From: a virus
Length of the DNA stretch: 33,207 bases
Reading direction: 5' to 3' (one strand)
IMG/VR virus record: IMGVR_UViG_3300037010_001595
Coordinates: 1-33,207 of that record
The notes beneath the pieces are model-generated. The model was given only the letters and a program-made list of their open reading frames with translations, made no database searches and was not told the origin of the DNA. Numbering within the stretch: position 1 is the first letter of the stretch; the number at the start of each line of letters is the position of its first letter. This document shows, piece by piece, positions 3,040 to 31,718 of the stretch. The translations under genes and the position numbers were made by a program.

Positions 3040-3172
3040 GGGGCCACCTTCCTTGTCTTCTTGTGCTCCTACCACTTCGTGCTTCTTTGGCCCTATCGCG
3101 TGCGTCTTTCTTGATGGCAAGGGCCTTGACCTTCTTATCCCGCACCTTCTTCCTGTGCTTTCCGTTGATCAT
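3017..3172 (-). CDS. Small strongly basic protein (51 aa)
   Basis: ATG at 3172 overlaps the upstream stop as ATGA and is preceded by AAGGTG. The product begins MINGKHRKKVRDKKVKALAI and is nearly one third Lys and Arg in its first 40 residues, suggesting nucleic-acid or ribosome binding. It overlaps the start of the next gene by 23 bp in another frame. No family recognised. The case rests on the overlap, the ribosome site and the strong compositional bias. Confidence 0.55.
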   Translation of the reverse strand: MINGKHRKKVRDKKVKALAIKKDARDRAKEARSGRSTRRQGRWPHGDDAPS

Positions 3173-3381
3173 TTCAGCACCTTCACGATGAGACCATCCT
3201 TGAGCTGGACCCGCGCATACCAGGTATGAGGCTTGGGGTAGTGATGGCCTTCCAGCGTGACCATTCCGTTAGCCGGTGGATCATCGCCCAGCCCTGGGTT
3301 GTAGACACCGCCAGCGTTACCCCTTGCGACGATGGCTTCTTTCATGGTCTTCTTGGACTTGTAGTCTACTTCGGAATACAT
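3169..3381 (-). CDS. Hypothetical protein (70 aa)
   Basis: The frame opens at 3402, but ATG at 3381 has GGAG at the right distance and avoids the stem-loop at 3401-3428, so it is preferred. The protein begins MYSEVDYKSKKTMKEAI and ends in a beta-rich segment with HTWYARVQLKDG. It looks like a small alpha/beta domain. Function unknown. The stop is coupled to the basic 51-residue gene. Confidence 0.6.
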   Translation of the reverse strand: MYSEVDYKSKKTMKEAIVARGNAGGVYNPGLGDDPPANGMVTLEGHHYPKPHTWYARVQLKDGLIVKVLK

Positions 3382-6572: not shown

Positions 6573-7267
6573 AGCAGCGCCTTCAGTTGGGACATTGCGT
6601 CGTCGTAGCCACAATCGCAATCATTATTATCATCGATGTCCTGGGTCTTGGGACAGTCCTTGTGGTGCCCGTTGTCATAGATGTATTGGATTACATCTTT
6701 GACACGCGTCGTGTTCTTCTGTGATTCCTCCATTCTCCGCTTGTGGGCCTCTGTCTGCATTTCGCGAAGTATGCGATTCTTACTCTGCAGGTCCGCTATG
6801 GAGGCCACAAGAGACATAAGCTCATTCTGGGCCTCTATAGCCACTAAGAACTCTTCTGCTGGGCTCTCAGGCGTGCCATGCCCGATACCAAGCTGCTCAA
6901 GCATGGCCAGCGCTCTCTTTATCTTTGCTGTCTGCATCACGACATCTCCTTTTTCGTTCATCAGCTCTTCCATGAGAGCTGCATACTCTGGCGATAGTTT
7001 CCTAAAGTCGGTCGGCACGATGCTGCGCCCTAAGCTCTCCGAGTAGGCCCCCTCGGGGCCTACTTCCGACAGCACCATTGCGAACGCATGCTCCTTGCAG
7101 GGGGCGATCAGTGCGACGTCTTGCTCGAAGGCTTCAAGCAGCCATGGCTTGAGCATCCCGTCCGTTGCCTCGCTAGCAATGTCAATGGCAATGGAGAACG
7201 CCCTTGCCTCACGGAGCCTTGCTGCGTAGTCCTCGAGAATACCTATAAGTCGGTGCAGTGCGGTCAT
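6569..7267 (-). CDS. Hypothetical helical protein with Cys-rich acidic tail (232 aa)
   Basis: ATG at 7267 has GGAG upstream, while the frame to 7363 overlaps the previous gene without a ribosome site. The body (residues 1-200) is almost entirely helical with coiled-coil character (QSKNRILREMQTEAHKRRM). The C-terminal 30 residues carry HHKDCPK and NNDCDCGYDD, a compact Cys/His/Asp cluster that could bind metal. Function unknown. Confidence 0.7.
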   Translation of the reverse strand: MTALHRLIGILEDYAARLREARAFSIAIDIASEATDGMLKPWLLEAFEQDVALIAPCKEHAFAMVLSEVGPEGAYSESLGRSIVPTDFRKLSPEYAALMEELMNEKGDVVMQTAKIKRALAMLEQLGIGHGTPESPAEEFLVAIEAQNELMSLVASIADLQSKNRILREMQTEAHKRRMEESQKNTTRVKDVIQYIYDNGHHKDCPKTQDIDDNNDCDCGYDDAMSQLKALL

Positions 7268-10199: not shown

Positions 10200-10312
10200 G
10201 TTTTATATTACTTAAATAAAAAAATATAACTATAATTTTATATTTTTCTATTTATATATTTATTATATTTATTTATTTTATTCTAGGTATATATAGTTAG
10301 GGGCAATTAAAA
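10200..10312. other. AT-rich tract, origin-like
   Basis: A stretch of roughly 110 bases is almost wholly A and T, made of TATA, TTTA and A-runs, in an otherwise mixed to GC-rich genome. Such tracts mark easily melted DNA at replication origins. Its place between divergent transcription units supports that reading. No DnaA boxes were recognised. Confidence 0.45.
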
Positions 10313-10721
10313 TAAACTTTTGGAAACCCGGCTCTCTGATGCTTCCTGGCACGGAATATGCCTGCCCATAATTGAGCCGATGATAAGACTCTGTTAAGAT
10401 CTTGATAAGACCCTCGATTCCACGATCTTCGGCGCCGCCATAATCCCCCCCATAGGCGTTGCAACTTTCAATTTTGACGCCAGGTTCTGTTAGCTCCTAT
10501 CTGCGATATGTGCAATTTTTAGTCATTCCGAGTTGACTACTCTGGACTCTGATCTTGGAACGACGAGCGATCTGAGCACAAAGAACCACGTCCACAAAAT
10601 CGGCGTTTTTCTACTCCATAAGTCACTCCAAGGATCCGAGTTTCCACGCTCCACTCTGTTCATTTTTCGTTATAAATACCGAGTAATCCCGAGATCCTAG
10701 CCCCCAATCCACCGACGCACA

Positions 10722-10845
10722 TGGAGTTCACACGCGGAGATCCACGTGTCAACGAAATCCGCTCTTTACCGAGGCCCTCAGCTGACTGGAGTTCACACGC
10801 GCGGATCCACGAGTCCACGAATCTCAGTCTTTTACCGACAACCTC
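10722..10845. repeat. Degenerate tandem repeat (two copies, about 65 bp)
   Basis: Two related units start at 10722 and 10787. Each begins TGGAGTTCACACGCG, continues with a GATCCACG segment and ends with a TTTACCGA segment. The first 14 bases are the R1 motif that recurs in the spacers at 11793-11842 and 12316-12474. Confidence 0.6.
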
Positions 10846-10909
10846 TAATCGAATATCCATTCAACTTGACTCTGTGAGACTCTTAGTGATGAACTAAACT
10901 TGATTAAAC

Positions 10910-10945
10910 TTTGAACTTGCAATTGAGGCACCGAGCAACTATACT
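10910..10945 (+). promoter_or_regulatory. First rightward promoter with 5'-terminal hairpin
   Basis: TTTGAAC box (10910-10916), TTGCAA -35 (10917-10922), 17-bp spacer, TATACT -10 (10940-10945). A TGCAGG-CCCC-CCTGCA stem-loop (10952-10967) begins at the predicted +1 and is followed by GGAGG for the gene at 10981. A variant of the R2 motif lies at 10867-10881, about 35 bp upstream of the -35. Confidence 0.7.
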
Positions 10946-10980
10946 TATAGTTGCAGGCCCCCCTGCACACGGAGGCTATC

Positions 10981-11088
10981 ATGCCTAGATCACAAACACG
11001 CCTCATCAATGCCTGGATCTCAGGCATTGTCCTTGCAATCCTCGCCAGCGCCTTCACGCTGGCCCTCGCAGCGGAGCTGTCACGATGA
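10981..11088 (+). CDS. Small membrane peptide (35 aa)
   Basis: ATG at 10981 has GGAGG five bases upstream, the best ribosome site of the region, and the stop overlaps the next ATG as ATGA. The product is MPRSQTRLINAW followed by a hydrophobic helix (ISGIVLAILASAFTLALAA) and a short ELSR end, with a basic N-terminus: a single-span inner-membrane peptide. As the first product of the first rightward promoter it may act early in infection. No family recognised. Confidence 0.65.
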   Translation: MPRSQTRLINAWISGIVLAILASAFTLALAAELSR

Positions 11089-11366
11089 AACCTTCGGAGT
11101 GGAACGAGAAGATCAAGACCAGAGTGCATGTCAAGTTTGAATTGGAGCTTGACGTCCACACCACTGGGGACACGAATGCCCAGGCTCTGGGCGAGGCCGT
11201 GAAACTCGTAGTGGAGTCATTGAAGAAACATGAACTGGGGTGTCGCTATTCATGGGCTGGAGCCTGGGTTGAAGGTTGTGAGATCAGCAAGATCTCCTGT
11301 GTGTCACTCGTGCCCATCCGATACGAGCCCGAGGAACCCGAGATCGAGGTTCCCGAGGCGCCATAG
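11085..11366 (+). CDS. Hypothetical protein (93 aa)
   Basis: Coupled by ATGA to the membrane peptide upstream. The product begins MKPSEWNEKIKTRVHVKFEL, shows an amphipathic helix in the centre (GEAVKLVVESLKKHELG), three cysteines and an acidic Pro-Glu-rich tail (EPEEPEIEVPEAP). No family recognised. Confidence 0.65.
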   Translation: MKPSEWNEKIKTRVHVKFELELDVHTTGDTNAQALGEAVKLVVESLKKHELGCRYSWAGAWVEGCEISKISCVSLVPIRYEPEEPEIEVPEAP

Positions 11367-11415
11367 GCCCGCGAAACTGGGCAGTAGGCCCTGAACAGCC
11401 CTGCGCCCAGCCCCC

Positions 11416-11449
11416 AGAGCATGGCCCAGAGCTGTCTGGGCCATGCTCT
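11416..11449 (+). other. Perfect 15-bp stem-loop
   Basis: AGAGCATGGCCCAGA (11416-11430) pairs without mismatch with 11435-11449 across a GCTG loop, 50 bases after the stop of the preceding gene. No T-run follows, so it is not a canonical intrinsic terminator. Confidence 0.7.
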
Positions 11450-11462
11450 ACGCTCCTCGAGC

Positions 11463-11514
11463 CCCCGCGCCTAGGCGGTAGCGGTCAGGGCACCGCCTCG
11501 AGGCGCAGAGGGGC
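11463..11514 (+). other. Second GC-rich stem-loop, possibly structured RNA
   Basis: Nested complementary segments (CCCC/GGGG outer, GCGCC/GGCGC middle, GGCGGT/ACCGCC inner) fold this stretch into one long hairpin directly after the 15-bp stem-loop. The pair occupies most of the gene-free gap 11367-11553 and might be a terminator-like block or part of a small RNA. Confidence 0.45.
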
Positions 11515-11553
11515 CTAGTTTATGGAACCATGCTACTAACTCAGGAGTCTAAG

Positions 11554-11793
11554 ATGAAGATGAGTGCTGATACTTTCGCTACGATTCAGTCTGGGGTTAG
11601 GTCCATCATGGATCTGTATCCCCGAGCGTTGGAAAATTATACAAAGGCAGGGAAGTCCGCCATGCGTTATCGCTGGGATCTGTATCATGCGGCGTGCGAC
11701 CGCAAGTTAATTGACTACATGCTGGCCTATCGTGATGGCTTGAATGATTCCCACATTGACACTGCGCTTCGGGCCATCACTGGAACTAAGTAA
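11554..11793 (+). CDS. Hypothetical helical protein (79 aa)
   Basis: The frame opens at 11530, but ATG at 11554 has AGGAG six bases upstream and is preferred. The protein begins MKMSADTFATIQSGVRSIMD and is helical and basic, with the compact pattern of small phage DNA-binding or inhibitor proteins. Its stop lies directly against an R1 repeat array. Function unknown. Confidence 0.65.
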   Translation: MKMSADTFATIQSGVRSIMDLYPRALENYTKAGKSAMRYRWDLYHAACDRKLIDYMLAYRDGLNDSHIDTALRAITGTK

Positions 11794-11842
11794 AGCTCAC
11801 ACGCGGATCCGAGTTCACACGCGGATCCGAGTTCACACGCGC
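11793..11842. repeat. R1 motif array (three copies, 18-bp spacing)
   Basis: AAGCTCACACGCGG at 11793-11806, GAGTTCACACGCGG at 11811-11824 and a third copy at 11829-11842 stand exactly 18 bp apart. The same motif recurs at 10724, 10789, 12316, 12413 and 12461, always in non-coding spacers of the rightward early region, and twice it abuts a stop codon. Confidence 0.75.
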
Positions 11843-11889
11843 CCGCGTGAGAAGAGTCCTTAGGAACTATTTGCGCGCCCTGAACCCTT

Positions 11890-11904
11890 GACTCTGCGCG
11901 ACTC
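11890..11904. repeat. R2 motif GACTCTGCGCGACTC (copy 1)
   Basis: A 15-bp element in which GACTC is repeated around TGCGC. Identical copies lie at 12380-12394 and 12488-12502, with a variant at 10867-10881. Here and at 10867 it sits about 33-36 bp upstream of a promoter -35, so it may be a regulator-binding site. Confidence 0.65.
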
Positions 11905-11930
11905 AGGGGCTAGAAAATCTTTGACAAAAG

Positions 11931-11965
11931 TTTGATGTGCATTTGAGTGGCGCAGGCCCTATACT
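11931..11965 (+). promoter_or_regulatory. Rightward promoter with 5'-terminal hairpin
   Basis: TTTGAT box (11931-11936), GTGCAT -35 (11937-11942), 17-bp spacer, TATACT -10 (11960-11965). A CAGGCA-AGGG-TGCCTG stem-loop (11974-11989) starts near +1 and leads to the AAAGGGG ribosome site of the lipoprotein gene. Confidence 0.65.
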
Positions 11966-12010
11966 ATACATACCAGGCAAGGGTGCCTGTCAAAGCCCAA
12001 AGGGGTCACA

Positions 12011-12148
12011 ATGTCAAAGTTCCGTTGCACCATCCGTGTTGCCCAGCCCATTGCTGTCTGGGCGCTGGCCTGCTCGTATCTCTTCTGCGGGCTCGTCGCC
12101 TGCGGCAACTCCCCCCGCGTCGCGCGGCGCTTGGTCAAGGTGGGCTGA
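12011..12148 (+). CDS. Small predicted lipoprotein (45 aa)
   Basis: ATG at 12011 follows AAAGGGG. The product has a basic N-terminus (MSKFRCTIRV), a hydrophobic core (AQPIAVWALACSYLFCGL) and a lipobox LVAC, after which the mature part would be only CGNSPRVARRLVKVG. This fits a bacterial lipoprotein signal with a tiny basic mature peptide. Phage lipoproteins include Rz1-type spanins and receptor-blocking exclusion proteins. No Rz partner is visible here and the gene is next to an early-type promoter, so exclusion is the more attractive guess, at low confidence. An alternative is a simple membrane peptide with chance cysteines. Confidence 0.6.
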   Translation: MSKFRCTIRVAQPIAVWALACSYLFCGLVACGNSPRVARRLVKVG

Positions 12149-12149
12149 T

Positions 12150-12317
12150 ATGTCAACGCGCATGGTTCGTATCCACAAGACCAACCCCAAGGGTCAGCGA
12201 CTCCGCGCTCTTTGGGTATATCAGCAGCGCATGGCCCGCATGATTGCTGAGCTCTTTTGCCCCGCCTGCCACACTGAGTTGGAACCAGGAGGTTGCCCCC
12301 GCTGCGGAGATTTCTAA
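12150..12317 (+). CDS. Small zinc-ribbon protein (55 aa)
   Basis: ATG at 12150 lies one base after the stop of the lipoprotein gene. The first 35 residues are basic and helical (MSTRMVRIHKTNPKGQRLRA). The C-terminus has two knuckles, CPAC and CPRC, with the spacing of a rubredoxin-type zinc ribbon. Probably a small nucleic-acid-binding or adaptor protein. Its TAA stop runs straight into an R1 repeat. Confidence 0.7.
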   Translation: MSTRMVRIHKTNPKGQRLRALWVYQQRMARMIAELFCPACHTELEPGGCPRCGDF

Positions 12318-12329
12318 GCTCACACGCGG
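12316..12329. repeat. R1 motif (spacer copy)
   Basis: AAGCTCACACGCGG begins inside the TAA stop of the zinc-ribbon gene, exactly as the copy at 11793 abuts the stop of its gene. Confidence 0.65.
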
Positions 12330-12338
12330 GCGCGCAAG

Positions 12339-12366
12339 GAGTTCCTTAGGGGACTCCTTGTTTTGA
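12339..12366 (+). terminator. Intrinsic terminator
   Basis: A stem with AAGGAGT and ACTCCTT arms around a CTTAG-containing centre is followed by GTTTT. It closes the unit of the lipoprotein and zinc-ribbon genes. A degenerate relative (AGTCC-TTAG-GAACT) lies in the previous spacer near 11851. Confidence 0.7.
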
Positions 12367-12379
12367 GCATCTTTGGCTT

Positions 12380-12502
12380 GACTCTGCGCGACTCTTCAGA
12401 GATCGCAGAACGAAGTTCACACGCGGGCGCTCGCTCGAGGAGCCGAGGAGCTCACGGTTTGAGCTCACACGCGGGCGCTCGAGAGGAGACTCTGCGCGAC
12501 TC
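12380..12502. repeat. R2-R1-R1-R2 block before the GA-free island
   Basis: This gene-free spacer holds R2 at 12380-12394, R1 at 12413-12426 and 12461-12474, and R2 at 12488-12502, joined by CGCTCGAG-type segments. It is dense in GA and TC, in complete contrast to the island that begins 12 bases later. Confidence 0.7.
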
Positions 12503-12528
12503 ACGCTCACGCTCACGCTTACTAGCGC

Positions 12529-12538
12529 ATGGGCATAT
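12529..12538 (+). repeat. Left inverted repeat of the island
   Basis: ATGGGCATAT lies 15 bases inside the left limit of the GA-free stretch. Its exact inverse complement is at 13545-13554, the last bases of the island. Confidence 0.6.
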
Positions 12539-12551
12539 AAGTATAAGGTTA

Positions 12552-12584
12552 TATAGTTATATAAGCATAGGTTATATAACTATA
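12552..12584. other. AT-rich 13-bp stem-loop
   Basis: TATAGTTATATAA (12552-12564) pairs perfectly with TTATATAACTATA (12572-12584) across a seven-base loop. It is entirely AT apart from one pair, at the left end of the GA-free island. A related ATATAGTTATAT occurs at the right end, near 13472. Confidence 0.65.
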
Positions 12585-12779
12585 CAAGCATAACCTGTAT
12601 AAACTACCTTGCGGTAAACAATGGCGGGCGGGTGCCGTGCCACGGCATAACATAGCCCCAATACGGCACACACTAACTGGTGCAGTTACTACACTTAGCA
12701 TAAACTGGTGCTTATGCTATGCCGCAATGCGGCACTATAACCAGGTGGTAGTATGGCTAAGTGCTGCAAGCAAAGCACT

Positions 12780-12809
12780 TTGCACTTTGGCCTGCCTTAT
12801 GCTTATACA
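12780..12809 (+). promoter_or_regulatory. Promoter of the island gene, with leader hairpin
   Basis: TTGCAC (12780-12785) and TATACA (12804-12809) are 18 bp apart. A TATGCT, the -10 used elsewhere in this phage, overlaps at 12798-12803. The leader folds as GGCAGG (12811-12816) with CCTGCC (12832-12837). This repeats the promoter-hairpin layout of the other units, but without any GA or TC. Confidence 0.45.
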
Positions 12810-12857
12810 AGGCAGGCCAGGGCAATGCCGCCCTGCCTATTACCCAAGGGGTACACA

Positions 12858-13346
12858 ATGGCCACCAAGCAAACTACCGCTACAAAGCAAACTACCGCTA
12901 CAAAGCAAACTACCGCTGTAAAGGCCCATGCCGTGCCAGCCGTGGCCACACCTGCCACACCTGCCACGCCGTTACAGGGTGCCAGCAGTAGGCAGGCCCA
13001 AGCCGTACTTATGGCCAAACTGTGTGGTGGCGCCATGCCCACGCACAATTTGCTGGTGGCCACCGGCCCCGTGCCGGTACCGGCCAACGGTAGCGTACGC
13101 AGCGCGGGGCACAATGCAATTTTGCAGGCCATGGCACAGTTGGCCAGCAATGGCCAGCCTGTTACCGTGGGCACAGTGCTAGGCTGTACCCTGCCAGCGC
13201 AGGCCAAAGCGCAAGCCGCCGGCCAGTGCAAGGTAAAGGGCCTTGCAGCGCAGCACCCTGCCACGGGCACGTGGTTTAGCATTAATGCCGGTATTGTAAG
13301 GTGTGCGTGGCAAAAACAAGCCATTGTGCTTAGTGTGCCAGCCTAG
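12858..13346 (+). CDS. Acid-free basic protein of the GA-free island (162 aa)
   Basis: ATG at 12858 has AAGGGG six bases upstream, a ribosome site that avoids the GGAGG used elsewhere. The frame is open further upstream, but through the leader hairpin. The protein opens with three TKQTTA repeats, then an Ala-Pro-Thr-Val linker to about residue 45, then a domain rich in Ala, Gln, Gly and Val (HNAILQAMAQLASNGQPVTV; GTWFSINAGIV). It has no Asp, no Glu and no Tyr. Ser uses only AGY, Phe only TTT, Ile only ATT, and the stop is TAG. Codon junctions obey the same ban, so the constraint acts on DNA. The high positive charge suggests nucleic-acid binding. No family recognised. Confidence 0.75.
   Translation: MATKQTTATKQTTATKQTTAVKAHAVPAVATPATPATPLQGASSRQAQAVLMAKLCGGAMPTHNLLVATGPVPVPANGSVRSAGHNAILQAMAQLASNGQPVTVGTVLGCTLPAQAKAQAAGQCKVKGLAAQHPATGTWFSINAGIVRCAWQKQAIVLSVPA
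12864..12917 (+). repeat. Three 18-bp tandem repeats in the island gene
   Basis: The unit AC(C/A)AAGCAAACTACCGCT is repeated three times in frame, encoding TKQTTA each time. It forms the start of the basic protein and probably arose by slippage. Confidence 0.8.
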
Positions 13347-13365
13347 CATAAACACTGTACAAGTA

Positions 13366-13396
13366 AACAATGCCCTGCCTAGCGCGGGGCATTGTT
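13366..13396 (+). terminator. Terminator-like hairpin of the island gene
   Basis: AACAATGCCC (13366-13375) pairs perfectly with GGGCATTGTT (13387-13396), 20 bases after the stop codon. Only a short GTATT follows instead of a T-run, so termination may be partial. Confidence 0.55.
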
Positions 13397-13418
13397 GTAT
13401 TAAAGTGTAACAATGCCC

Positions 13419-13442
13419 ATAGGCTACCAGGTGGTAGCCTAT
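13419..13442. other. Perfect 10-bp stem-loop
   Basis: ATAGGCTACC and GGTAGCCTAT pair without mismatch around an AGGT loop. Part of the arm (ATAGGCTAC) is repeated at 13446-13454. The element lies in the gene-free right part of the island. Confidence 0.65.
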
Positions 13443-13544
13443 GCTATAGGCTACAGTATGCTTTGTTATGCATATAGTTATATGGGCATGTAGCATAGTT
13501 ACTGGCATAACTACTTATGCTTATGTACATATAGGTATATAAGC

Positions 13545-13554
13545 ATATGCCCAT
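13545..13554 (-). repeat. Right inverted repeat of the island
   Basis: ATATGCCCAT is the exact inverse complement of 12529-12538 and ends one base before the first TC outside the island. Confidence 0.6.
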
Positions 13555-13555
13555 T

Positions 13556-13903
13556 CAGTGCCATTACGGCTGCGCCGCGCTCCTAGTCTCGCAGCACTGA
13601 GGAGCTAATACTCTGCACACCTCGGGGTGCATCTATGCTGGTCTTCGGAATGTTCACTCCGCGCCAGAGATCGGAGAAGCTGGGAATCAGAGATCCAAGA
13701 ATCCCAGAGATCCAAGAAGCCCAGAGATCAGCGAAGCTGGTAATAGGAGAAGCACGGTTTCTACACCAATATAGAGTCACAGAAATCCCAGTTCATAGTG
13801 CACACTCCAAATAGAATCACAAAATACTGAGGATCGAACATAAAGGCTTGCTCGCGGAGCCAATCCGCCCTACACTTGGCATTGGACTACCGAGGATCCA
13901 AGC
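13556..13903. other. Gene-free stretch before the terminase genes
   Basis: This stretch holds the four iterons at 13664-13737 and a TGCAC/GTGCA stem around 13613-13630. No gene was found. No promoter of the phage's usual type is visible; TAGAAT near 13814 is the only -10-like hexamer noted and lacks a good -35, so late transcription may need an activator or read-through. Confidence 0.5.
13664..13737. repeat. Four 17-bp iterons upstream of the terminase genes
   Basis: Units with consensus CCAGAGATCCAAGAAGC start at 13664, 13687, 13704 and 13721. The last three are directly abutting, while the first is separated by a six-base TGGGAA. Each contains AGATC. Iterons just before the small terminase gene are candidates for the packaging recognition site. 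A replication origin is the other possibility. Confidence 0.75.
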
Positions 13904-14449
13904 ATGGCGAAGCCTAGGAAAAAACCGGAACCCTTACAAATTCCCCCCGACGCGCCCGATACAGACATGTTTGAGCTCGTGGACGAAGCCTCCCTGGGCA
14001 TTTCGCTCCGAGTGCTCAGAGCCATGCAACTCCGACGGGATGGCCATGACTATATGGAAATCGGTGCTATCATGGAAATTGGCACCGTCATGGCCAGGGA
14101 ACTTGTTAAGACAGGACTGGAGCTTCTGCACAAGGAGCTTCAGGAGACGATTGATGAAGTGATGGTATTGGAGCTCAGCCGACTAGATGCGCTTCATAAG
14201 ATTCACTGGCCCACGGCCAAGGATAGCAAGTCCGCGGATATCATCCTGAAGATTTCTGACCGGCGCTCCAAGTTCCTTGGTATGGACCAGGCCCCCAAGG
14301 GCGACAACGATGGAGCGACTGCGGTTCGCGACTTCCTATATCAGGCAATGAAACAGTCTGGTAAGGAGACTGACTACAATGCCTACCTCGTGAAGCAGAG
14401 GCTTCAGGAAGAAGTAGGTTCCGAGGGCGCGGCGCCCAGCGGCGAGTAG
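13904..14449 (+). CDS. terS: Terminase small subunit
   Basis: The 181-residue protein lies immediately before the large terminase gene. It has a helix-turn-helix-like segment near residues 40-75 (MQLRRDGHDYMEIGAIMEIG, ending in MARELVKTG), a helical oligomerisation region (ETIDEVMVLELSRLDALHKI) and the typical SADIILKISDRRSKFLGM motif of many phage small terminases. It would recognise the packaging site, perhaps the iterons at 13664-13737, and load the large subunit. The start at ATG 13904 has an AGGA-type site; an upstream frame from 13848 belongs to non-coding sequence. Confidence 0.8.
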   Translation: MAKPRKKPEPLQIPPDAPDTDMFELVDEASLGISLRVLRAMQLRRDGHDYMEIGAIMEIGTVMARELVKTGLELLHKELQETIDEVMVLELSRLDALHKIHWPTAKDSKSADIILKISDRRSKFLGMDQAPKGDNDGATAVRDFLYQAMKQSGKETDYNAYLVKQRLQEEVGSEGAAPSGE

Positions 14450-14463
14450 CGGGTAGGCCGCCG

Positions 14464-15807
14464 ATGATCAGCCTCCCCGCTCGTTGGACTCCACTGCGCG
14501 AGATCAAGCCGCAGATGGAGTATGCGAGCTCCCCCCACAGGTTCAATGTGGTGCCTGCGGGGCGACGATCTGGGAAGACAGAGAACGCAAAGCGGAAACT
14601 TGTGCTACGGGCGCTCATGCCGCCAGGGATGCCTGGAGCGAGCAACTTTCCGGACCCGCGGTACTTTTGCGGAGCGCCCACTCGGGATCAGGCGAAGCGC
14701 ATCTACTGGAACGATCTGAAGCTCCTGGTGCCGAAGCGGCTGATCGCCCCCCGTGGGATCTCAGAAACAGAGCTTTCCATCACCACCATTATGAATTCGA
14801 CCATTATGGTCGTTGGCATGGACAAGCCAGAGCGCATTGAAGGATCGCCCTGGGATGGCGGGATCCTTGATGAATACGGCAACATGAAGGCGTCGGCCTG
14901 GAACGCGAACGTCAGGCCTGCGCTGGCCGACCGACAGGGCTGGTGCGATCTGATCGGCGTGCCTGAAGGAAGAAACCACTATTACGATGTGGCCGAGTAC
15001 GCCAAAGCGCAGATGATTGAGTTTGGCGAAGCGAGCGAGTGGGGATACTACCACTGGAAGAGCTCTGAGGTCTTGGACGCGCAGACCGTTGAGTCGGCGA
15101 AGCGTGACATGGATGAGCTTACTTTTCAGCAGGAATACGAGGGATCCTTTGTCAACTTCGTCGGAAGGGCCTACTATAACTACACTGACGCGAATAAGGC
15201 TAGATTGGATTATGATCCAAAAGCTCCAATCGCGTTCTGCTTCGACTTCAATGTGGATCCGGGCGTGGCTGTTATTGCACAGGAGGGCATTCTCCCAAAC
15301 GGCCTCGTCGGGACCAAGGTTATCGGTGAGATCTACATACCTCAGAATTCTAATACCGTGGCCGTATGCCGGAAGCTCATCGAAGTATGGGGTGAGCACC
15401 AGGGCGAAGTTCATGTGTATGGCGACGCCACCGGCGGTAACAGAAAGACGTCGGCGACCCAGGGCTCTGACTGGGATTTGGTCCGGTCGGTGCTTAAACC
15501 GCACTTTGGAGAACGATTCATGTATTTCGTGCCTCGCGCGAATCCCACTGAGCGAGCGCGGGTGAACTGCATGAACAGCCGCATTCTTAACGTCGTCGGG
15601 GAACGCCATCTCTACTGCGACCCGAACCGTGCCCCTATGACATCGCGCGATTTAGACGGGGTGCGCTTGCTTGAAGGCGGCAGTGGCGAGATTGACAAGC
15701 ACCAGGACGCGAAACTGACCCACTTGTCTGATGGACTTGGATACTACATTGTCTATCGTTTTGTTGGTGGACAGAGTCTTTCTGTCACTAAGACTTACTA
15801 CGGCTGA
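14464..15807 (+). CDS. terL: Terminase large subunit
   Basis: 447 residues with both domains of the packaging motor. The ATPase part has a Walker A G33RRSGKT39 and a Walker B ending in ILDE (catalytic Glu137). The RNase-H-like nuclease part shows the acidic residues D261 (FCFDFNVDPG), D321 (YGDATGG) and D423 (HLSDG). The protein cuts concatemers and pumps DNA into the prohead through the portal. It is slightly short compared with many TerL proteins (450-550 residues) but looks complete. It follows terS by 14 bases. Confidence 0.95.
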   Translation: MISLPARWTPLREIKPQMEYASSPHRFNVVPAGRRSGKTENAKRKLVLRALMPPGMPGASNFPDPRYFCGAPTRDQAKRIYWNDLKLLVPKRLIAPRGISETELSITTIMNSTIMVVGMDKPERIEGSPWDGGILDEYGNMKASAWNANVRPALADRQGWCDLIGVPEGRNHYYDVAEYAKAQMIEFGEASEWGYYHWKSSEVLDAQTVESAKRDMDELTFQQEYEGSFVNFVGRAYYNYTDANKARLDYDPKAPIAFCFDFNVDPGVAVIAQEGILPNGLVGTKVIGEIYIPQNSNTVAVCRKLIEVWGEHQGEVHVYGDATGGNRKTSATQGSDWDLVRSVLKPHFGERFMYFVPRANPTERARVNCMNSRILNVVGERHLYCDPNRAPMTSRDLDGVRLLEGGSGEIDKHQDAKLTHLSDGLGYYIVYRFVGGQSLSVTKTYYG

Positions 15808-27330: not shown

Positions 27331-28019
27331 CTCTTTCTCGCTTAGATCCCGGGTATGTTGACCCCATTCCGCGCAGGGAAATCGCAAGTCTAGACCCCGG
27401 CGCTGTTATTGAACTGTTCGTTCTAGACGCCAGCGATCCCAGCATCGGGGGCGGGCTGACTTATTTCCACGCCGGAACGAACGATGTGTGGGCCAACATC
27501 GTCTGGCAGGGCAACACCTATCAAGCATTCCCTATCAAGGCAGACGGGTTCGAAATAACCGGAAAAGGCACCCTGCCCCGGCCAAAGATCACAGTTGCGG
27601 CTGTTGATGGTCTGATTGGATTGATGATCCGAGACTACGACGATTTGGTGGGGGCCACACTCATAAGAAAGAGGACACTTGCCAAGTTCCTCCCCACAGG
27701 TTCAAGCCCGAATCCTAATGCCTACCTGCCGGATGATGTGTTCGTCATAGAACGAAAGACCCTTGAAACAAAGGATTTCATCTCCTTTGAGCTTGCCAGC
27801 AAGATGGACGCGCAGGGCCTCAAACTTCCGCGCAGAGTTATCCAGGCAACCATCTGTCCTTGGGTCTACAAGGGATACGAATGCACCTACTCGGGAGCTC
27901 TGGCCACCTGCAATAAAACTCTGAACGATGCAACGGGAGACGGTGGGTGTCTACAGCACTTCTCCCCCGCCACCCCGCTTCCTTATGGTGGATTTCCAGG
28001 CGCGGGGCTGGTGCGATGA
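27327..28019 (+). CDS. Minor tail protein L
   Basis: 230 residues, GTG start. Matches lambda gpL: the N-terminal ELFVLDASDPSIGG, the central YQAFPIKADGFEITGKGTLP and the four cysteines C177, C186, C195 and C208 of the C-terminal domain, which in lambda gpL bind an iron-sulfur cluster. Part of the tail tip. The stop overlaps the next ATG as ATGA. Confidence 0.9.
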   Translation: MTLSRLDPGYVDPIPRREIASLDPGAVIELFVLDASDPSIGGGLTYFHAGTNDVWANIVWQGNTYQAFPIKADGFEITGKGTLPRPKITVAAVDGLIGLMIRDYDDLVGATLIRKRTLAKFLPTGSSPNPNAYLPDDVFVIERKTLETKDFISFELASKMDAQGLKLPRRVIQATICPWVYKGYECTYSGALATCNKTLNDATGDGGCLQHFSPATPLPYGGFPGAGLVR

Positions 28020-28708
28020 CCCCAGAACTTCTATCAAAAGCTCATATCCATGCCATGGAGATGTCTCCCATGGAGTCTGTCGGAGTTGTGCTTGATATCA
28101 AAGGAACCGCAGAGTATCGTAGATGCAAGAATCTTTCAACTGTAGAAGATGAACTTGATCTGTGCCCCGATAGTTTGGTGGCCACGCAGGACGAAGGGTG
28201 CCTGATTGGGTATATCCATAGCCACGTCGGTGGGGACGTCCGTCCCAGCGCCGCTGATGTGAAAAGTTGCAATGCGACAGGTGTGCCCTGGTGGGTAGTC
28301 ACTGACGCAAGCCAATCGTGGAGACGCATAGACCCCGTTGGGCGGCCTATTGAGGGGCGGCAATTCGTGTTTGGCGTGGACGATTGTTGGTCAATTGCAC
28401 GCGAGTGGTATGCCCTTGCCAATGATCAGGAACTGCCGGACTTTCTGCGTAGCGATAAGTTTTGGGAACGCGGCGAAACTCCTCATCTAGATAATCTTCT
28501 TGCAGCGGGGTATTACGAAATCAACATCAAAGATCTGCGGGAAGGCGATGGGATTCTCATGGAAGTTGCGGCTCCAACTATTAACCATTGCGCTATCTAT
28601 GTGGGACATGGTAAGATACTTCATCACCTGCCAAACCGTCTTTCTCACATTGACGAGTATGATGGACACTGGCAGGGTCGGACCAGGATGGTGGTGCGCC
28701 ATGACTGA
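28016..28708 (+). CDS. Tail tip peptidase K (JAMM plus NlpC/P60)
   Basis: 230 residues from ATG 28016; a longer frame lies inside gene L. The N-terminal Mov34/JAMM domain has E20, H68-S-H70, S78 and D81. The C-terminal NlpC/P60 domain has the catalytic C124 (DDCWSIARE), H191 (NHCAIYVG) and a third polar residue near H203-H204. In lambda relatives the protein helps tail assembly and may cut peptidoglycan when DNA enters. It overlaps gene I by eight bases. Confidence 0.92.
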   Translation: MTPELLSKAHIHAMEMSPMESVGVVLDIKGTAEYRRCKNLSTVEDELDLCPDSLVATQDEGCLIGYIHSHVGGDVRPSAADVKSCNATGVPWWVVTDASQSWRRIDPVGRPIEGRQFVFGVDDCWSIAREWYALANDQELPDFLRSDKFWERGETPHLDNLLAAGYYEINIKDLREGDGILMEVAAPTINHCAIYVGHGKILHHLPNRLSHIDEYDGHWQGRTRMVVRHD

Positions 28709-29417: not shown

Positions 29418-31718
29418 ATGTCTTATTCGCTTCCTTGGCATTTAAGCAGTGATTGGTCTACAGGATTGGGCGGTCTTCTTGGCCTCGACGATAATTTTAC
29501 AACAGAAGCCAATGTTGAGATGGCCCGGATGCTTGTCGCAGTGTGCGAGGGGCCAATCGGAGGTTTAGTCAACGGGCTTAAATCTGTTTATTTAGACGAC
29601 AGCCCCGTTCAAGGCCCTGCCGGAATGAATTTCAAGGGTGTGGCCTTGGCGCTCACTGCGGGTTACAACGACCAAGCCATGATTCCAGACTTCCCGGACG
29701 TGGAAGCTGTCAGAACTTCCGAATTGAATCTACCCTGTGCTGTGACTAATGCTGCCCCACAGACGCGAACGATGATCACACCGAATATTTCTGCTGTTCG
29801 CGTATCAATTTCAATTCCTACACTGAAAGTAGTAAATAAAGAAAATGGAAACGAGAGTGGTTCTTCCTGCCAGATTGAAATTTGGATATATAGAAATGGC
29901 TACAATGGCAGTGTCTTCACTAAGGTTCCGATTGATAATGATGGCCTTGTTCGGAATAAGTTTGGTGACGAGTATGTCAAATCATACAGAATAGACCTGC
30001 CCAATGTAGGAACGGGGCCGTGGCAGATCAGAGTGGTTCGTGTCACCGCCGATCCCCTTGACGCTTATACTCAGAACTTGACCAACTGGAAATCACTGAC
30101 AGAGATCACAGATGCCCTGCTTCGGTATCCTAACACCGCAATGATGGCCCTGAAAGTAGACGCGAAGCAATTCCGCAACGTGCCACGCCTTTCAGCAGAA
30201 TACTATCTCCGATTAGTGAAGATTCCTTCTAACTACACCCCCGCGTTCATGAATGAGGAAACAGGTATCTGGACTCCTGGTGTCTATACTGGTGTGTGGG
30301 ATGGGCTGTTCAAATCGGCGGAAGCGTGGACCTGCAACCCAGCGTGGATTTTCTACGACATCGCAGTCAATACACGCTATGGGGCTGGATCATACTTGGA
30401 CGCCTCTTCTTTGGATAAGTGGGCTCTATACTACATTTCAAAGTTGTGCGACGAAACGCTTATTCCGGATGGAAATGGCGGGTGGGAGCCAAGATTCTCG
30501 TGCAACCTATTTATCCAAGCACAAGAGGACGCGCTCAAAGTTCTGATGACAATGGCCTCAATTTTCCGTGGCATGGCCTATTTCGCAGGCGGGCTAGTCA
30601 CCCCCGTGGCAGATGTTGACGCATCTCCTGTAATGATTTTTAATTCGGCCAATGTTCACGATGGCGTGTTCTCTTATTCAGGCACCGCGAAGAAAGCTCG
30701 CCACACTGCGGCGCTAGTAGCGTGGACTAACCCAGCGATGGGCTACCAGCAGTCTGTTGAATACGTCCAAGATGACGCTGGGGTGGCCAGGTACGGCTAT
30801 CAACCAACGGAGGTGACTGCGTTTGGTTGCACCAGCCAGGGGCAAGCCAGAAGGCTCGGTTTATGGACCTTAGCTACAGAACTTCTTGAAACTGAAGTCG
30901 TGACATTCCGCGCGGGAATGGAGGGCGCGGCCTGCCGACCTGGCGATATCATACAGATAGCCGACCCGTTCAGAGCTGGGAAAACGCGCATGGGCGGGCG
31001 TGTGCTGCCAGGGACTACTGCATCAACTGTGCTTTTAGATGACACAGTCACACTGGTAGCTGGAACCTATACGCTTAAATGCACACTGCCGAGCGGTGTC
31101 GTGGAGGCAAGAACCGTCACCAACGGCACCGGCTCTACGAGCTCGTTGACTGTATCCGCCCCATTTTCTGCTATTCCAGAAACGATGTGGCTTCTACAAT
31201 TATCCACCAATATGGCTCTGTATAGAGTTCTTGGTATCCGTGAAGCAGGGCCAGTAGATTACGAGGTCACCGCCCTTCTGCATGATCCGGCTAAGTACAG
31301 TTATGAGAGCGGACTTCGCATCTCAGCGTCAGGGGGATTGACACAGAGGTCTGCGGCGGCGCCTTTCCCTGTAACGACTAATTCATATGTGAAGATTCTC
31401 AATTCTCGCGCAGCAATTCAGCTGGATGTATCTTGGCCGAATAATACGATGGCGGTGGGTTACGCGTGCGCCTACTCTCGTGACTACCGGCCATTTGTTC
31501 CGATGCAGGTTGCGGGATCATCTGCGTCCGCCGAAGAAGTTCTTCCCGGTGACTATAGAGTTCGTGTGCAGGCTTTCTTCGCTGGCATCACGAATACATT
31601 CGTCACTGAGGTGATACTGACCATTGCAGATCCAAATGGAAACCCGGCTTCTCTAACAATTCCTGCCACGACGCCGGGTAGTATCACCCTTACGGTAACA
31701 ACCACCAAGCCAGTTTAG
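29418..31718 (+). CDS. Central tail tip / host specificity protein J-like
   Basis: 766 residues with AGGAGTATC upstream. Landmarks of gpJ-type proteins: MARMLVAVCEGPIGGLVNGL near the N-terminus, the central IWIYRNGYNGSVFTKV and PAWIFYDIAVNTRYGAG segments, and fibronectin-like beta repeats toward the C-terminus (IQLDVSWPNNTMAVGYACAY). It forms the tail hub and often reaches the receptor. It is shorter than lambda gpJ (1,132 residues); the next gene may carry the receptor-binding part. Confidence 0.88.
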   Translation: MSYSLPWHLSSDWSTGLGGLLGLDDNFTTEANVEMARMLVAVCEGPIGGLVNGLKSVYLDDSPVQGPAGMNFKGVALALTAGYNDQAMIPDFPDVEAVRTSELNLPCAVTNAAPQTRTMITPNISAVRVSISIPTLKVVNKENGNESGSSCQIEIWIYRNGYNGSVFTKVPIDNDGLVRNKFGDEYVKSYRIDLPNVGTGPWQIRVVRVTADPLDAYTQNLTNWKSLTEITDALLRYPNTAMMALKVDAKQFRNVPRLSAEYYLRLVKIPSNYTPAFMNEETGIWTPGVYTGVWDGLFKSAEAWTCNPAWIFYDIAVNTRYGAGSYLDASSLDKWALYYISKLCDETLIPDGNGGWEPRFSCNLFIQAQEDALKVLMTMASIFRGMAYFAGGLVTPVADVDASPVMIFNSANVHDGVFSYSGTAKKARHTAALVAWTNPAMGYQQSVEYVQDDAGVARYGYQPTEVTAFGCTSQGQARRLGLWTLATELLETEVVTFRAGMEGAACRPGDIIQIADPFRAGKTRMGGRVLPGTTASTVLLDDTVTLVAGTYTLKCTLPSGVVEARTVTNGTGSTSSLTVSAPFSAIPETMWLLQLSTNMALYRVLGIREAGPVDYEVTALLHDPAKYSYESGLRISASGGLTQRSAAAPFPVTTNSYVKILNSRAAIQLDVSWPNNTMAVGYACAYSRDYRPFVPMQVAGSSASAEEVLPGDYRVRVQAFFAGITNTFVTEVILTIADPNGNPASLTIPATTPGSITLTVTTTKPV

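Follow-up and report, generated by a model that had tools for sequence, protein, structure and literature searches.

Why would a virus keep a kilobase of its DNA, with a whole gene in it, free of one dinucleotide directly before its terminase genes, and crowd the same dinucleotide at the borders of that stretch? We analysed this locus in a 33,207-base virus record (the window, itself a fragment) and in its relatives. On the left, it opens with a flank dense in GA/TC; a transcription unit without GA/TC follows, and then come AT-rich repeats, a conserved core, iterons, the promoter of the small terminase gene (terS), terS and the large terminase gene, terL (Table 1).

Table 1. Positions and strands of the features discussed in the text
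Feature	Position	Strand	Basis or remark
Left GA/TC-dense border	12393..12513		Among the densest 0.15% of windows (23 GA+TC per 100 bp at 12393)
GA/TC-free island	12514..13555		1041 bp between TC at 12513 and TC at 13555
Promoter-like TTGCAC-N18-TATACA of island gene	12780..12809	+	Read from sequence
Island gene, 162-aa protein, Ala/Pro/Thr/Lys-rich N-terminus, no Asp/Glu	12858..13346	+	Codon-position differences
Inverted repeat, terminator-like, after island gene	13366..13396	+	Repeat and terminator inspection
AT-rich TATATAAGCATATG-type repeats, right island edge	13516..13547		Expanded in L005
Conserved core RGTYYSNNNNNMCTGABGASYTWHWMCTCYGC, 32 bp	13585..13616	+	Pattern scan
Iteron 1, CCAGAGATCGGAGAAGC	13664..13680	+	2 mismatches
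Iteron 2, TCAGAGATCCAAGAATC	13687..13703	+	2 mismatches
Iteron 3, CCAGAGATCCAAGAAGC	13704..13720	+	0 mismatches
Iteron 4, CCAGAGATCAGCGAAGC	13721..13737	+	3 mismatches
terS/late promoter-like TTGCTC-N17-TACACT	13848..13876	+	Kept in 8/8 relatives aligned
Small terminase subunit (phrog_645)	13904..14449	+	Same-place gene of MW202621 annotated terS
Large terminase subunit (terL)	14464..15807	+	
GA-containing homologue of L013 island protein, 36% identity	3439..3852	-	Such a gene need not be GA-free

The island contains no GA or TC, against 129.7 sites expected. In 2000 shuffles of its bases, the minimum was 102 sites, and no other trinucleotide fell below 0.73 of expectation. The avoidance is a property of the DNA duplex, concerns exactly one dinucleotide and includes the noncoding flanks within the island. 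Avoidance at the RNA level is unlikely, because GA and TC both vanish beyond the transcribed part as well; an Rfam search of positions 12300-14000 gave no match to an RNA element. To the left, the spacer at 12318-12514 has a GA/TC observed/expected ratio of 1.59, the other spacers being near expectation (0.81-1.22), and in relatives L005-L008 this border is replaced by about five 27-bp GA-rich tandem repeats. Within our limited knowledge of the literature, we know of no described case of kilobase-long protein-coding DNA purged of one dinucleotide under selection, and a selection-kept kilobase of this kind with dense borders fits no system known to us.

An earlier note had described the right-hand border as four 17-bp iterons, three of them abutting, 166 bp before terS and 108 bp from the island. 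The copies are present, the last three adjoining one another, with five matches in the window at three mismatches or fewer for 0.09 expected, and both their contiguity and the two distances are correct. That they are 'packed with GA and TC' proved an understatement, as their 74 bp hold 20 such sites for 9.6-9.7 expected, and no stretch of the window is denser. The observed/expected ratio of the block is 2.07, and its 25 sites in 100 bp are the highest density for that length in the window; in G002, L005 and L008 the block is likewise the GA/TC-densest place, and in G003 it comes second. The repeat array is real, and its unit needs correcting: the relatives show a true unit of 8-9 bp, a half-unit (CCAGAGATC / CAAGAATC), with resulting periods of 17 and 25 bp. 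Copy number ranges from two full units (L007) to approximately 14 half-units (L006), and L013 has no recognisable iteron repeat family at the locus.

There is nothing unusual in direct repeats before terS as such. Here, they bound on the right a locus that is larger and conserved. The proposal that iterons and island form one functional locus is well supported, as relatives carry the two together and the peak of GA/TC density adjoins the stretch from which GA/TC is missing. On the conservation that the note wished to see checked, the answer is split, since the core and the terS promoter are kept and the number, phase and sequence of the iterons are poorly kept. From these alignments, the simple view that TerS binds 17-bp iterons appears disfavoured, because a different element, the core, is conserved instead, together with the terS promoter. 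In all of IMG/VR, the core pattern matched seven contigs, every one in the island clade, and it is absent from the remaining loci compared outside that clade; the L006 core has one base changed. Proximity to terS and conservation with the same terminase, as sought for a pac site, are found for the core and the terS promoter, and only loosely for the iterons. Several contigs run unbroken through the locus. A search of the genome contigs returned no relatives of terS among them.

A search of IMG/VR with TerL yielded 73 loci. The island is present in L005, L006, L007, L008, L011, L012 and L013, which have at least 67% TerL identity and reach far enough upstream, and it is absent from L014 (63%) and more distant loci. 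A search for more distant islands by the core pattern and by the island protein returned only contigs that were already known. Between each pair of the five closest islands there are 104-232 substitutions; their random placement would create 30-60 GA/TC sites, and one to nine are seen. Judged from this comparison, the GA/TC-free state is maintained by ongoing selection. In L006, the island gene is nearly free of GA/TC except for a short patch (6787-6859), which holds most of the eight sites of the gene and looks like a recombined or relaxed segment.

The pattern of substitutions also indicates that the island gene is under protein-level selection, with 54-72 differences at third codon positions versus 9-29 at first and 4-20 at second positions. 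Asp and Glu, all of whose codons start with GA, are absent from its product, for which the AlphaFold model is unusable (mean pLDDT 35). The island protein of L013 has homologues at other places in these phages, encoded by ordinary GA-containing genes; the avoidance is thus tied to the place and not to the protein family. The promoter-like site, the Shine-Dalgarno sequence, the gene and the terminator-like hairpin all lie inside the GA/TC-free stretch. This promoter (counterpart in L007, CTTGCAC...TTATACT) fits the recurring CTTGC-N-TATACT type of the phage, and the consensus promoter scan did not list it. Sites of the same type at 10916, 13847 and 18649 precede the first plus-strand gene, terS and the capsid gene region, respectively.

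Genes for DNA modification were read in relative G003 (TerL 98%), whose ends overlap by 247 bp at 95.5% identity, far from terS; its map is therefore circular and complete. A single cluster in G003 codes for a glycosyltransferase (GT)-like protein, a 5-hmdU DNA kinase helical-domain protein (HMUDK_hel match, E 2e-44), a dUMP hydroxymethylase with 46% identity to the M6/MP1412 enzyme, and an HD protein; a separate P-loop kinase was not identified in this genome. The combination of dUMP hydroxymethylase and 5-hmdU kinase-pathway protein was thus found in G003 and not in the 33-kb window. L011-L013 are likewise fragments, and the kinase domain is linked to the window through G003. The large relatives without an island (G009, G010, G011, G013 and G015; 53-87 kb) lack the kinase-domain family. 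The GT-like gene of G003 lies directly before the helical-domain gene (L081:16552-18350), and homologues of the two also occur together in L101 and L102. The pair may represent a pathway to glycosylated 5hmdU; the model of the GT-like protein is weak (pLDDT 55).

In M6, ViI and phi W-14, 5hmdU-derived modifications occur at TG/TC, a placement ascribed to the 5hmdU DNA kinase (Flodman et al., PMC6449724). G003 encodes homologues of the dUMP hydroxymethylase, HMUDK helical-domain and HD proteins of these phages, and because the published context includes TC, the simplest reading by analogy is that TC/GA would be the modified word in this clade. Two observations count against the explanation built on this reading: TG/CA is not avoided in the island, yet the published context is TG or TC, and other phages with these genes (M6, RHph_I65, Bhz59 and G014) have no such island. 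M6-type phages also differ in that G003 has the GT-like gene beside HMUDK_hel, and M6 and the relatives examined are without a TC- or TG-free island. MW202897 has no GA/TC-free island either.

Deazaguanine modification was considered and rejected, as DpdA, FolE, QueC, QueD and QueE of JG012 have no match in the complete relative G003; a Pfam TGT search was uninformative for DpdA, having missed the annotated enzyme of JG012 as well. The Iggy lineage reportedly carries deazaguanine DNA modification with a GA motif. Iggyvirus Knedl has 15 long GA/TC-free runs versus 3.6 expected, the longest of 181 bp, some coding for Ala/Pro/Gln-rich linkers and some noncoding. Among the noncoding patches (L140/L141; e.g. 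record positions 3151-3311 and 58499-58651), the first contains a promoter and a terminator-like hairpin.

The island is probably a site that has to stay clear of the DNA modification which the phage itself carries out. The island and its upkeep by selection, the dense borders, the core, the promoter and, in a complete close relative, the modification genes are observed; we infer that modification in this clade falls on TC, that it spares the island and that the locus serves the terminase. Our tentative first choice, which we hold at below even confidence, is that a pac-like control locus is organised around DNA beyond the reach of the modification system, with the iterons as its modification-dense border; serious rivals are an early transcription unit and a replication origin. 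The phage would make 5-hydroxymethyl-dUTP, and after replication, the base would be hypermodified at TC (GA on the opposite strand). The 1-kb island would stay plain because it has no TC/GA, and the iterons would become the most heavily decorated DNA of the genome. The sharp transition between plain and decorated DNA, with the core in between, would be the site of TerS assembly, and TerL would make the first cut there, adjoining the terS promoter. In addition, the island would hold all the parts of a small transcription unit, with a DNA-binding-like protein as its product.

We prefer packaging because the locus lies directly before terS, because of parallels with two pac sites, and because the modified base is required for packaging in phi W-14 and SP-15, the two classical phages with this chemistry; in SP-15, DHPU is needed for packaging and not for expression (PMC5977210). 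The mapped pac of 9g, a headful phage of the Queuovirinae with modified DNA, has two 21-bp direct repeats in a divergent intergenic region (PMC5567051). In a setting similar to that of our locus, its repeats lie by the cut, where the arms diverge, upstream of a rightward operon, and its sequence (L151:3301-3800, record nt about 27800-28300) is poor in GA/TC to the left of the mapped cut and dense at the cut. In contrast, the 9g repeats are of unrelated sequence, the site is about 4.6 kb from terS, and there is no GA/TC-free island, the longest run in the 9-kb region being 56 bp. The SPP1/SF6 pac (pacL-pacC-pacR, with box A/B/C repeats) lies directly where terS begins and takes in the terS promoter as well as direct repeats, and there too the repeats vary and the promoter is conserved (PMC4737164); unlike at our locus, neither dinucleotide-free DNA nor a link to modification is reported for it.

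Two points count against packaging: a pac site does not obviously need an entire GA/TC-free gene, and iteron copy number is not conserved. On the broader proposition that the contrast between a plain gene-bearing domain and saturated borders, and not base sequence alone, signals an essential step (packaging start or first transcription), we would put the chances not far below even. If the preferred reading is true, hypermodified phages need specific places left unmodified, and this locus names the place: the phage purges its own modification dinucleotide from a 1-kb gene-bearing domain and brackets that domain with saturated blocks. Why packaging in phi W-14 and SP-15 depends on thymine hypermodification, and whether it matters where the modification lies, are questions that the literature has left open and that this locus makes testable.

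The strongest rival, somewhat unlikely in our view, holds that the island is an unmodified transcription unit, which plain host RNA polymerase could transcribe although the incoming genome is decorated. Its basic, DNA-binding-like product would help the phage to use or regulate decorated DNA, and the iterons, upstream of the late promoter, would be operators for this protein or for another regulator of the terS/late promoter. This rival better accounts for an entire gene, under protein selection, being plain from promoter to terminator, and the Knedl patches, including the one with promoter and hairpin, speak in its favour. However, the island extends about 270 bp upstream of its promoter and about 160 bp beyond the hairpin, and dozens of other genes are not GA-free. 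Modification in SP-15 is reported to be unnecessary for gene expression, although inhibition was not thereby tested (PMC5977210).

A replication origin, in which the iterons and AT-rich TATATAAGCATATG repeats would be kept free of modification to let the strands part, is less likely still. In G003, the minimum of the cumulative GC skew falls inside the island (31126, with the core at 31492), but this turn coincides with the switch in gene orientation. AT-rich repeats occur at both island edges; on the other hand, iteron number and phase vary among relatives, and there is no DnaA-like box at the locus. The lambda origin, which we take as a lead only, likewise has four repeats of similar length adjoining AT-rich DNA; it differs in that iteron copy number is variable here and no initiator was identified. 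In favour of an origin, phi W-14 DNA melts at a higher temperature because of its PutThy (PMC5977210). The window also offers another candidate melting region or origin, approximately 85 bp of nearly pure A/T at 10200-10286 (8% G+C per 100 bp), intergenic between the two arms.

It is quite improbable that a host or phage nuclease cuts or nicks plain GA/TC, so that the island must survive while unmodified. Avoidance of exactly one dinucleotide in double-stranded DNA would suit such an enzyme, but GA/TC abounds elsewhere in the genome, the island borders are enriched in it and no GA/TC-specific enzyme was identified. A compositional artefact or mutational footprint (Ala/Pro-rich coding, a TC deaminase or low complexity) can practically be dismissed, for despite the Ala/Pro/Thr-rich N-terminus of the protein, the noncoding flanks are also without GA/TC, same-base shuffles never came near zero and the state has been kept through heavy substitution. 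The deaminase version was rejected in its own right, as AA and TT are not in excess, contrary to a TC-to-TT change.

Farther to the left, dispersed repeats (GAGTTCACACGCGG, GACTCTGCGCGACTC) recur at 10629-12480 in successive spacers between small plus-strand genes and are likely to be shared regulatory signals.
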